This document shows, piece after piece, positions 41,958 to 55,430 of a stretch of DNA of 64,000 nucleotides. Position 1 is the first letter of the stretch. Every line of letters begins with the position of its first letter. Under the pieces are notes generated by a model. It saw nothing but the letters and a program-made list of their open reading frames with translations. It was not told where the DNA came from and made no database searches. Source of the DNA: Macrocystis pyrifera (taxonomy: Eukaryota; Sar; Phaeophyceae; Laminariales; Laminariaceae); assembly GCA_031763025.1 (NCBI GenBank), contig JASSKH010000005.1:11364528-11428527 (forward strand), given 5' to 3'. A program made the translations under genes and the position numbers.

Positions 41958-42953
41958 TCACGCCTGAAAGAAAAACCACACCCGAACGCACGCACCCATG
42001 GACGAGATCTTTCGCGTTGTTGGCGTGGCCAATGCTGGTCGTGGCGTCCCGTCGACGGACTGATGGGGTCTCTGGGCAGGCCTAGGCCTCGAAGTGTCGA
42101 GGGATTGATGGGATTTCTGCGAAGGCCTAGGCCTCGATGTGTCGAGGGATTGATGGGAGTTCGGCGCAGGCCTAGGCCTCGATGCGTCGAGGGATTGACG
42201 GGACCCCTGTGCAGGCCTAGGCCTCGACGTGATTGACGTCGATGACAGCGACGAAACGCTGCTGCCAACGCTCATGACCGCGGTCTCCCCTGTTCCCAGA
42301 CCGGTCGCGAGGTGGGGGTGATCTTTTTTCAAACTCTCCCGCCCTTGCTGTTGTTCTTGTTGTTCTTGTTTTGCTCCTCCTTGTGGGCCTGCTTTCTTCT
42401 CTTCCTCTTGTTGTTGCTTTGGCTGTGGCCGTGGTTGCTGCTTCTGCTTCTGCTCCTGCTCGTTGTCTCGCCCACGTTGTTCCATTTCTTGGTACTCCTT
42501 CTCCTTGTCTTGTTCGTGCCCGTGGTTTCCTTGTCCGTCTTCTTGGCGTTCTTTGAGAGACTGCCGTTTATGTTCGCCTTGTTCCTGCTGATCATCCCAC
42601 ATTTCTTGTTGCCCTTGCCTTCCGGCTTCTTCTTTCTGTGGTTGTTGGGGCTGTCGTGGCGTTTGGCCTTGGTGCCGTTGGTCTCGTTTGGGGAAGTGCT
42701 CCTGCTGCTCACATACCGTTCCTCCTCGTTGTTCTTGTCGTTCTTCTGGTTGCTGCTGCTGCCCTCGCTCCTGTTGCTGCTGCCGCTGTTGTATCTCTTC
42801 GTGTGGGTGTGGTTGCTGCAGCGGGGCAGAGGCGGCAACCTCTGCCAGCGGGTTTTCTTCCGGATTTTCCAGATGGCCAAGAACTGTCGTCACCGCAGCG
42901 CACACCTGTGCGTCGGACATCCGTACGATGACATACATAATAGCCACGGCGCG
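41958..42953 (-). CDS. Kinase gene exon 8: Gln/Glu-rich tail with 15-residue repeats
   Basis: An open frame of about 330 codons ending in a stop at 41958. It begins with a probable last kinase helix ([19 protein letters not shown]), then a strongly polar region of about 170 residues dominated by Gln, Glu, Arg and Lys. Next come a Ser-rich stretch and four to five copies of a unit like SRPRPAQxSHQSLDT. The 5' boundary (acceptor tcaaag, phase 0) is the least certain junction. The same frame stays open upstream of it through intron sequence and a 54-base C tract, which is probably chance. The tail is likely disordered and may bind partners. Confidence 0.6.
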   Translation of the reverse strand, partial: RAVAIMYVIVRMSDAQVCAAVTTVLGHLENPEENPLAEVAASAPLQQPHPHEEIQQRQQQQERGQQQQPEERQEQRGGTVCEQQEHFPKRDQRHQGQTPRQPQQPQKEEAGRQGQQEMWDDQQEQGEHKRQSLKERQEDGQGNHGHEQDKEKEYQEMEQRGRDNEQEQKQKQQPRPQPKQQQEEEKKAGPQGGAKQEQQEQQQGRESLKKDHPHLATGLGTGETAVMSVGSSVSSLSSTSITSRPRPAQGSRQSLDASRPRPAPNSHQSLDTSRPRPSQKSHQSLDTSRPRPAQRPHQSVDGTPRPALATPTTRKISSMGACVRVWFFFQA

Positions 42954-54900: not shown

Positions 54901-55430
54901 GAAAGGTCCGGCCAGAAATAAAAGGAGGCGATTTCCAAGTGGGAGCTGTGAGAGACCAGGGATGAAGCAACCGAGCACGCTCAGAGAGTGAGATATCTAT
55001 AAGTACTTCTATAAGTTCCCGGACGGGTTTACGAGACAAGATATTTTTCCATTTTCGCTGCGCTAGCCTCTCTCACCTTGGTGATCTGCTCCAGCCTTGC
55101 CTCCGCATCAGCGAGCGCCTGTTTGTTGGGGTTCTTGCGCTTCAGCACGGCGGTTGATGCGCGCTTCGAAAGGCTCGTCGGAAGACCGCAGCGGCCCACC
55201 AAGGATTGCAGTATCTCGAACACGCCCTTGAGCTCCAGCAGACTGGTCTCTAGCTGAGCTTCGTCACTGAAGTGCTCCCCAGCATTCTTGAGAGTCCCCA
55301 AGACGTTTTGCGTTCGGACTGCAATACGTGCCACTTCGACCTGGCACTGTTTCGCTTCTTGGCACATCTCCAGAACTCTCATGCCCGTGCCGAACACGAA
55401 CGTTGCGAGGGAGCCTGCTAATAATAACAT
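41958..55430 (-). CDS. MLKL/HeLo-like domain plus TKL protein kinase, eight exons (whole gene model)
   Basis: Proposed exons in transcription order are 55430-55077, 48392-48169, 47557-47300, 46136-45941, 45289-45131, 44414-44319, 43648-43469 and 42953-41958. Every junction has GT-AG and matching phase, giving about 820 residues. Residues 1-118 resemble the N-terminal four-helix bundle of MLKL (HeLo-like fold). Residues 119-193 are a helical, brace-like linker. Residues ~230-489 are a TKL-type kinase: glycine loop GQGTFGVV (243-250), VAIK lysine 263, HRDLKSLN (356-363), DFG (376-378), APE (405-407), an Asp at 419 in helix F and the ERPKM arginine. All catalytic residues are present, so it is probably active, unlike animal MLKL. 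The tail is Gln/Glu/Ser-rich. Family knowledge: MLKL-type proteins in animals and plants permeabilise membranes in immune cell death. That role here is inference. The start ATG (gccATG) is plausible, but an acceptor lies just downstream and more 5' exons are possible. Confidence 0.75.
42060..42240 (-). repeat. 45-bp coding tandem repeat in kinase tail
   Basis: Four to five imperfect 45-bp units, each containing caggcctaggcctcga on the plus strand and encoding a 15-residue unit (SRPRPAQ.SHQSLDT). The units remain in frame, and several differ at third positions. Confidence 0.85.
43174..43227. repeat. C homopolymer, ~54 bases
   Basis: An uninterrupted C run on the plus strand (G run in the transcript), in the intron before kinase exon 8. 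Confidence 0.9.
43469..43648 (-). CDS. Kinase gene exon 7: kinase C-lobe end
   Basis: 180 nt (60 codons), phase 0 on both sides, acceptor acaag and donor GTGAGG. It starts [18 protein letters not shown], directly continuing MWE of the previous exon. It ends [21 protein letters not shown], the helix-H/I signature whose Arg pairs with the APE glutamate. The 5' boundary is chosen because it is the only nearby AG giving an uninterrupted join. Confidence 0.8.
44319..44414 (-). CDS. Kinase gene exon 6: APE motif and helix F
   Basis: 96 nt (32 codons), phase 0 on both sides, acceptor ggtcag and donor GTAAGG. It reads [20 protein letters not shown] and then [12 protein letters not shown]. It supplies the APE motif, the helix-F aspartate and the invariant MWE tryptophan. 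Confidence 0.87.
45131..45289 (-). CDS. Kinase gene exon 5: catalytic and activation loops
   Basis: 159 nt, phase 0 on both sides. It encodes [19 protein letters not shown] followed by ILLDD and KISDFGLAK. It therefore carries the catalytic Asp, the Mg-binding Asn and the DFG Asp, plus a Ser/Thr-rich activation segment ([12 protein letters not shown]) with plausible phosphorylation sites. HRDLKSLN is typical of the TKL group. The donor used here (gttaga) is weak, but only it gives the in-frame join to the next exon. Confidence 0.87.
45941..46136 (-). CDS. Kinase gene exon 4: helix C to hinge and helix D/E
   Basis: 196 nt, completing an Arg codon at its 5' end and leaving in phase 0 at a strong GTATGT donor. 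It encodes [20 protein letters not shown], supplying the helix-C glutamate and the HxNIV signature of TKL kinases. The hinge follows ([15 protein letters not shown]), then a helix ending in QDVSE, the usual lead-in to the catalytic loop. Confidence 0.85.
46606..46715. mobile_element. Small foldback element (MITE-like), complete
   Basis: About 110 bp with 30-bp terminal inverted repeats: the left arm contains cggaggactatagtaaatag and the right arm is its inverse, ctatttactatggtcccccg. The arms differ at about four positions. No coding capacity. It lies in the intron between kinase exons 3 and 4. Confidence 0.8.
47300..47557 (-). CDS. Kinase gene exon 3: kinase N-lobe
   Basis: 258 nt, entering with one base that completes an Arg codon and leaving in phase 2. 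A Gly/Ala/Pro/Lys-rich linker of about 30 residues leads into [20 protein letters not shown], the first two strands and glycine-rich loop. VAIKRA follows, with the strand-3 lysine, and the exon ends at the start of helix C (IMEAF). The acceptor is cactcag and the donor gtgcgg. Confidence 0.85.
48100..48134. repeat. C homopolymer, ~35 bases
   Basis: An uninterrupted C run on the plus strand. It lies 34 bases inside the intron that follows kinase exon 2. Confidence 0.9.
48169..48392 (-). CDS. Kinase gene exon 2: helical brace-like linker
   Basis: 224 nt between a good acceptor (cgcag) and a GTGAGC donor. It enters in phase 0 and leaves in phase 2. It encodes [18 protein letters not shown], then an acidic/basic helical stretch ([15 protein letters not shown]) and [15 protein letters not shown]. 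The position between the helical bundle and the kinase, and the helical character, recall the brace region of MLKL. A run of about 35 C on the plus strand starts only 34 nt into the following intron. Confidence 0.65.
49152..51540 (+). mobile_element. RTE-like LINE, 5'-truncated, with long open reverse transcriptase frame
   Basis: The frame from about 49160 to the stop at 50985 encodes a non-LTR reverse transcriptase starting at the conserved [11 protein letters not shown] region. It continues with [45 protein letters not shown] and the catalytic YADDAGI. The C-terminal part has [10 protein letters not shown], then [11 protein letters not shown] and GGQPKTWPR, typical of RTE-like elements. The extreme C-terminus is Arg/Gly/Ser-rich ([17 protein letters not shown]). 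The endonuclease domain is missing, and a stop codon lies just before GPDG, so this is a 5'-truncated copy with an intact RT core. The 3' untranslated part probably reaches about 51540. It sits antisense in the first intron of the kinase gene. Confidence 0.85.
51433..51535. repeat. Dispersed repeat shared with the window's right end
   Basis: tatctctgtgtcgtagtctg tgaccaca and cagcacggacactggg occur in the same order at 63.88-63.97 kb. It lies about 450 bp after the LINE stop codon, so it may be the LINE 3' end. Confidence 0.65.
51567..51598. repeat. (CA)n microsatellite
   Basis: About 15 CA units directly downstream of the presumed LINE 3' end. Confidence 0.95.
52040..52128. mobile_element. 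Small foldback element, PstI-site type, copy 2
   Basis: gactgcagtcccgtgttgga on the left and tgttcccaaaacgggactgc on the right form a hairpin. The ends are clearly related to 28952-29020, with a different centre. Confidence 0.7.
52140..55020. other. First intron of the kinase gene, left part: no gene recognised
   Basis: Besides the SINE-like head it contains AT microsatellites, a palindrome (gggcggcctatgccgccc, 53878) and a block of repeated gcctgcgggccttagc words (53738-53788). Short frames at 52391-52609 and 53334-53669 (plus) show no domain. Confidence 0.45.
52783..52862 (+). repeat. tRNA-like SINE head or tRNA pseudogene
   Basis: It has a D-arm-like tggcttggtaggtgg and a T-arm-like gtgggttcaagtctcac (B box GGTTCAAGTCT, five-pair stem). 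The acceptor and anticodon stems do not pair, so it is not a functional tRNA. It is followed by AT-rich sequence. Confidence 0.45.
55077..55430 (-). CDS. Kinase gene exon 1: MLKL N-terminal/HeLo-like helical bundle
   Basis: 118 codons from ATG (55430) to a GTGAGA donor, ending in phase 0. The segment is almost entirely helical: [17 protein letters not shown] opens it, followed by a second amphipathic helix ([17 protein letters not shown]), a third after an acidic turn ([19 protein letters not shown]), a basic linker with KRKNPNK, and a last helix ending LEQITK. Pattern and length match the N-terminal domain of mixed-lineage-kinase-domain-like proteins, in which the first helix carries a similar EMKxCKKQC-type run. 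The recognition is by eye from helix and cysteine pattern, not from a profile score. An AG at 55415-55416 could instead make this an internal exon beginning at 55414. Confidence 0.6.

Follow-up and report, generated by a model that had tools for sequence, protein, structure and literature searches.

A candidate HeLo-kinase gene with intact catalytic motifs in the brown alga Macrocystis pyrifera

An eight-exon gene on the minus strand

The window analysed here is a 64,000-nucleotide stretch of the Macrocystis pyrifera genome (assembly GCA_031763025.1, contig JASSKH010000005.1, positions 11,364,528 to 11,428,527), in which a preliminary description made from the letters alone had placed a gene for an MLKL-like protein, with a helical N-terminal bundle of the HeLo type followed by a kinase. 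The candidate gene consists of eight minus-strand exons that run from 55430 down to 41958 (all coordinates are those of the window), exactly where they had been placed. Its parts are the following.

55077..55430, minus strand: exon 1 (residues 1-118); carries the start codon, a hydrophobic first helix at residues 2-20 and the larger part of a predicted four-helix HeLo/MLKL_N-like bundle
48393..55076, minus strand: intron 1; 6.7 kb, containing a LINE-like sequence that encodes a reverse transcriptase (RT) on the opposite strand; junction supported by an MLKL_N match spanning it
48169..48392, minus strand: exon 2 (residues 119-192); completes the last helix of the predicted bundle and adds two brace-like helices
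47300..47557, minus strand: exon 3; linker and kinase N-lobe, with the glycine loop GQGTFGVV at 243-250 and the VAIK lysine, Lys263
45941..46136, minus strand: exon 4; kinase from the alpha-C helix (Glu281) through alpha-E
45131..45289, minus strand: exon 5; catalytic loop HRDLKSLN (Asp358, Asn363) and DFG at 376-378
44319..44414, minus strand: exon 6; end of the activation segment, APE at 405-407, alpha-F
43469..43636, minus strand: exon 7; end of the kinase C-lobe
41958..42905, minus strand: exon 8; last kinase helix, low-complexity tail rich in Q, E, K and R, and a repeat array; TGA at 41958-41960

All seven introns are of the GT-AG type, the cumulative intron phases (0, 2, 2, 0, 0, 0, 0) are free of conflict, and the joined coding sequence reads through 800 codons to a TGA with no internal stop. 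The earlier claim that eight exons join without a phase conflict is therefore borne out, and the sequence predicts an intact-looking eukaryotic gene. In a leave-one-out codon test the proposed frame ranked top of the six frames in 8/8 exons, in exon 8 by 0.01 only; the support that this lends is modest, because the test penalised stop-containing frames and the true frame itself scored slightly below zero in four of the eight exons (3, 5, 7 and 8). The fraction of order-1 resamplings that stayed open was 0.038 for exon 1, 0.089 for exon 2, 0.093 for exon 3, 0.087 for exon 4 and 0.0065 for exon 8, while for exons 5-7, which are too short for this test to tell, it was 0.23-0.67. Searched for paralogues with tblastn, the window returned the gene's own exons and otherwise matches at E 2 or worse.

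A kinase-like stretch in intron 6 raised the question whether exons 6 and 7 flank a missed exon. This was rejected: judged by eye, the sole phase-fitting acceptor before the stretch would add 15 unrelated residues and the phase-fitting donor after it is poor. Counted by hand on the alignment with CTR1, the WE-to-RP span is one residue off its CTR1 counterpart, so nothing seems to be missing. Two other introns carry unbroken C runs (G on the gene strand), one of 54 at 43174-43227 in intron 7 and one of 35 at 48100-48134 in intron 2.

The kinase

With the 511-residue head of the protein as query, PF07714 matched residues 237-487 at 2.9e-41, slightly better than the general kinase profile. The domain is complete, since the glycine loop (GQGTFGVV, 243-250), the VAIK lysine (Lys263), HRD (within HRDLKSLN, with Asp358 and Asn363), DFG (376-378) and APE (405-407) are all present, together with Glu281 in alpha-C and ASDVF at 417. 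As had been proposed, every catalytic motif of a TKL kinase is in place, and the enzyme is apparently catalytically competent, as predicted from these motifs. TKL is a fair label for its group.

Among the best 60 of 2626 solved chains that match the kinase, the closest are CTR1 (2e-29) and IRAK4, followed by Raf, TAK1, FERONIA and others. A query cut down to the N-lobe half reached IRAK4 at no better than 1e-20 (26 sequences). An animal MLKL orthologue would be expected to be a pseudokinase with an MLKL-like kinase-fold sequence and a substrate of RIPK3. Here VAIK, HRD and DFG are intact, and orthology to animal MLKL is not supported by the sequence, because the closest listed relatives of the kinase are CTR1, IRAK4 and Raf. 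A search of phages with the kinase gave 31 records, all below 60% identity; among the 20 listed, three are annotated as kinases and the others are unannotated.

The N-terminal head and the first splice junction

The HeLo call, previously made from the helix pattern, now has profile evidence beside it. For the joined exons 1 and 2 (192 residues), MLKL_N (PF22215) was the best of 24,736 Pfam families, with a sub-threshold score of 21.3 bits (E 2.1e-4) over profile positions 6-136 of 142. Longer queries scored lower (20.9 bits with 209 residues, 18.2 bits with 511), the match still reaching profile position 135-136. Exon 1 alone, or read on into the intron, gave 16.6-17.1 bits and a match that ended at profile position 74-75. 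The control queries together (exon 1 alone or into the intron, altered junctions, shuffled exon 2) ranged over 15.4-17.1 bits, with the match stopping near residue 80-90: the in-frame neighbouring acceptor 69 bases upstream of the exon-2 acceptor gave 15.4 bits and lost the extension, five decoy acceptors joined to exon 1 gave 15.5-16.2 bits, and two shuffled versions of exon 2 gave 15.6 and 16.1 bits. Of the six decoys found, one proved to be the genuine acceptor of exon 6, which left five, two of them within intron 1 and three lying downstream of these; the choice had required at least 60% pyrimidine upstream, a filter that the real exon-2 acceptor (5/17) would fail. No MLKL_N match came from three shuffles of the whole query, from its reversed copy or from two versions in which exon 1 was shuffled. 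The best family thus matched over nearly its full profile and above the controls. The rise in score is specific to the proposed junction of exons 1 and 2, and the match, crossing a 6.7-kb intron, therefore supports that junction.

In the Pfam scans of the N-terminus, no other family of the HeLo or RPW8 type appeared at E up to 10; this covers RPW8, fungal HeLo, SesA and Goodbye, at a level where the HMMER filters drop most weak matches. NCBIfam returned two chance-level matches only, and a construct beginning in exon 2 matched nothing further.

A helical N-terminal bundle and a brace-like linker had also been described. AlphaFold2, run on single sequences, places helices at residues 6-22, 26-51, 57-80, 86-99 and 103-117 of exon 1 (mean predicted local distance difference test, pLDDT, 64) and, again without an alignment, at residues 122-138, 143-164 and 169-189 of exon 2 (pLDDT 67). 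The predicted helices would fit a bundle with its last helix spanning the junction of exons 1 and 2 and two brace-like helices after it. The models are helical throughout; the structural comparison, considered in the Discussion, returned no significant match. The first helix is strongly hydrophobic: residues 2-20 have a mean Kyte-Doolittle value of +1.61, the highest of all 19-residue windows starting at residues 1-200. Such hydrophobicity is to be expected in the first helix of a HeLo domain, which has a membrane role (PMC10197012; this and the other papers cited are drawn on from excerpts).

The tail of exon 8

The long polar repeat tail reported earlier was recovered. Residues 501-720 are 52% Q, E, K and R and include 52 glutamines, and the tail ends in an array.

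42051..42231, minus strand: four tandem 45-bp units of 15 residues each, reading SRPRPxxxxxQSxDx

Changes between the units number 16, 13 and 18 at codon positions 1, 2 and 3, so that protein-level constraint on the repeats is not indicated; the tail is the least certain coding part of the gene. At the DNA level, 4/4 copies share an identical start, TCGAGGCCTAGGCCT, with a palindromic AGGCCTAGGCCT core, which is better conserved than the remainder of the unit.

Surroundings of the gene

Five of the ten open reading frames (ORFs) searched in the window match transposon families, of the LINE-like and copia types.

49153..50982, plus strand: LINE-like reverse transcriptase ORF, inside intron 1 but no part of the gene (PF00078, 9e-35)
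4664-5197, minus strand: copia-type integrase/RT ORF (Pfam), with a 48% identical relative in an Oligoflexales metagenome-assembled genome (MAG)
15399-16964, plus strand: copia-type integrase/RT ORF (Pfam)
18818-19792, plus strand: copia-type integrase/RT ORF, below Pfam's cut-off
20558-21373, plus strand: copia-type integrase/RT ORF (Pfam)

A scan of genome contigs with the LINE-like RT gave 21 pattern matches and two relatives, with best-segment identities of 55% and 80%, both on contigs of about 3 kb (L001, L002) of the Oligoflexales MAG; plasmids held no near match. The same MAG contains the copia-type RT that is 48% identical to one ORF of the window, and weaker matches (26-27%) to another. 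Because relatives of the window's RT ORFs are found in it, this MAG probably carries eukaryotic DNA binned into a bacterial genome. That it stems from kelp work is a guess, prompted by the 9 Bdellovibrionota MAGs that PMC9238374 reports for bull kelp. Its four kinase-like matches (27-34% identity) tell nothing on lineage.

Upstream of the gene, at 58359-60488, 42-bp units with AATTGATTTCGG-like motifs, for which periods of 84 and 126 bp can be read as well, form long arrays that look like satellite DNA. Rfam and tRNA scans of the window gave no family at threshold and no tRNA.

Discussion

We consider it likely, judging from the predicted domains, that the protein is a credible new case of the HeLo-kinase architecture, from what may be a new branch of eukaryotes. 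The reading that we favour, with a probability of about 0.6, is that of a one-chain HeLo-kinase in which an active-looking kinase would control the release of a membrane-active bundle. From the gene model, the motifs, the match across the junction and the hydrophobic helix we infer a fold, autoinhibition, activation, autophosphorylation, membrane damage and an immune role that might be linked as follows. As long as the protein rests, its N-terminal bundle, hydrophobic first helix included, would be held by the brace helices and the kinase. Copies of the protein would gather on a signal from upstream or by crowding via the Q-rich tail, whereupon the kinase could phosphorylate itself or its neighbours, which is possible because it keeps all catalytic residues, and a separate RIPK3-like kinase would not be needed. 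The freed bundle would then oligomerise and permeabilise the membrane, leading to regulated cell death in immunity. It is tempting to go further and to see here a stramenopile single-chain, self-activating MLKL switch, which would unite the regulator (the job of RIPK3) and the pore-forming executioner in one protein and be triggered via the Q-rich C-terminal tail, but this extended form is doubtful.

Several observations weigh against a HeLo-kinase or limit the case for one. (i), the MLKL_N score lies below Pfam's curated cut-off of 27 bits, and weak matches to this profile are easily obtained: over 58 genomes of one bacterial phylum, nine match at E <= 0.05 with 14.4-19.1 bits (the best, 19.1 bits, over profile positions 15-86; none above the cut-off), as do 3/14 control genomes, again with none above the cut-off, and the reversed copy of our own query matched HR1 at E 0.031, so that helical composition alone yields weak matches. 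(ii), Foldseek with the exon-1 model gave 0/216 matches in the PDB at E <= 0.001 and no MLKL among the best 50 of 216, although the query was weak, being exon 1 alone (an incomplete domain) in a single-sequence model of pLDDT 64, so that this result speaks neither for nor against the fold; phmmer with the N-terminus against the PDB found no MLKL and one chance-level match only. (iii), there is no MLKL or RIPK in the best 60 of the 2626 solved chains matching the kinase. (iv), the exon-2 acceptor is pyrimidine-poor (5/17 upstream bases). (v), relatives were sought in vain elsewhere: the N-terminus gave nine pattern matches but no confirmed relative in viral contigs, no relatives in phages and no match in the Oligoflexales MAG, and the kinase gave no pattern match in viral contigs. 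(vi), a Diamond survey of 67 unicellular protists with human queries, published in 2020, came up with no homologue of MLKL, and its authors took the pathway to be likely vertebrate-exclusive (PMC7539657); it does not cover brown algae, because these are multicellular. The genome counts imply that 15-19 bits arise by chance in genome-sized searches and that exon 1 alone is unconvincing; a near-full-length match of 21.3 bits in a single tested protein, beside a kinase, appears more convincing than that. The HeLo call has thus gained a profile match that stays under the cut-off, and nothing from structure comparison.

The protein might instead be a signalling kinase of the TKL/Raf-CTR1 kind, its helical bundle serving as a module for membrane anchoring or oligomerisation that does not itself kill, and its clustered copies trans-phosphorylating each other to feed a cascade of the MAP-kinase type. 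CTR1- and IRAK4-type kinases do use their N-terminal region to recruit or cluster, and the nearness of this kinase to CTR1, IRAK4, Raf and TAK1 within the listed solved chains, its intact catalytic motifs and the sub-threshold MLKL_N score would all suit such a role. We nevertheless find it rather unlikely, since Pfam's top family for the N-terminus is MLKL_N rather than a scaffold or receptor-binding domain and the first helix is strongly hydrophobic. An error at the 5' end, where exon 1 would belong to another gene of the HeLo-like kind or to a fragment, and the start of the kinase gene would lie in exon 2 (the Met of DLGLPM is one candidate) or elsewhere, is suggested by the length of intron 1 (6.7 kb), the retrotransposon sequence inside it and the weak exon-2 acceptor with its 5/17 pyrimidines. 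Such an error seems improbable to us: with this junction only does MLKL_N extend from about position 74 to 136, an extension that the acceptor 69 bases upstream destroys, and exon 2 opens with a predicted helix able to continue the last helix of the bundle; the phases match, and the codon scores favour the frame in exons 1 and 2. We give least credence to a decaying or non-expressed gene copy within a transposon-rich region, in spite of the five transposon-type ORFs among the ten searched and of tail repeats lacking an excess of third-position changes (16, 13, 18), as 800 codons free of internal stops and frameshifts, with all catalytic motifs and splice dinucleotides intact, are hard to reconcile with decay.

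In vertebrates and plants, heads of the HeLo type act as executioners in immune cell death, and fungi have related heads. If the HeLo-kinase reading is correct, its occurrence outside animals, plants and fungi would suggest that homology surveys with human sequences miss divergent members. Brown algae, from which ROCO- and NB-ARC-type proteins have been described as candidate immune receptors (PMC11378527), would gain a candidate executioner alongside them, and confirmation of its function would extend a death switch of the MLKL kind to another branch of life. Were the extended form, the self-activating single-chain switch, also true, the HeLo-kinase module would date back to near the eukaryotic base, stramenopiles being a lineage distant from animals as well as from plants and fungi. 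Among the matches listed in the open-licence PMC literature, no title or abstract concerns an MLKL-type kinase of brown algae or other stramenopiles, and the excerpts of PMC11218826 and PMC7982415 contain nothing on a brown algal MLKL.

The preliminary description had named the architecture as that of animal and plant cell-death executors and had counted the apparently active kinase among the features that would widen its range; known systems show that the architecture reaches beyond animals and plants and that an active-looking kinase in it is not new. Fungal HELL/HeLo proteins share the HeLo superfamily head, which some of them combine with a kinase or pseudokinase domain in a single chain (PMC12881547), and basidiomycete MLKL-like proteins share that head too (PMC9815663); as far as one can judge, their lineage differs from that of the candidate. 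Glomeromycotina, too, are reported to have homologues of the MLKL transporter class (PMC8778642). CTR1, Raf and IRAK4 resemble the candidate in kinase-domain sequence, whereas its N-terminus matches MLKL_N and not their known N-terminal domains. Animal MLKL has the same order of N-terminal helical bundle, brace and kinase fold, but is a pseudokinase phosphorylated by RIPK3 (PMC12881547), whereas the candidate kinase keeps every catalytic motif and is nearer to CTR1, IRAK4 and Raf among the PDB chains shown. Arabidopsis AtMLKL likewise combines a HeLo domain, which can elicit cell death, with a kinase fold (PMC10951266); the AtMLKLs are pseudokinases, in contrast to the intact motifs found here. 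A protein that joins a HeLo domain to an active-looking kinase is already on record: Pm13 (AelMLKL), an Aegilops longissima gene used in wheat, confers mildew resistance accompanied by strong cell death, and its product has an MLKL_NTD four-helix bundle, a helical brace and a C-terminal kinase with all key catalytic residues (PMC10951266). The candidate, compared here with the published description of Pm13, differs in its sub-threshold bundle match and in the Q/E-rich tail with its repeats after the kinase. Two brace-like helices are predicted in the candidate; the brace of Pm13 is described as three-helical (PMC10951266). What appears to be new is therefore not the architecture, which the candidate would share with Pm13, but a HeLo-kinase member in a possibly new branch.

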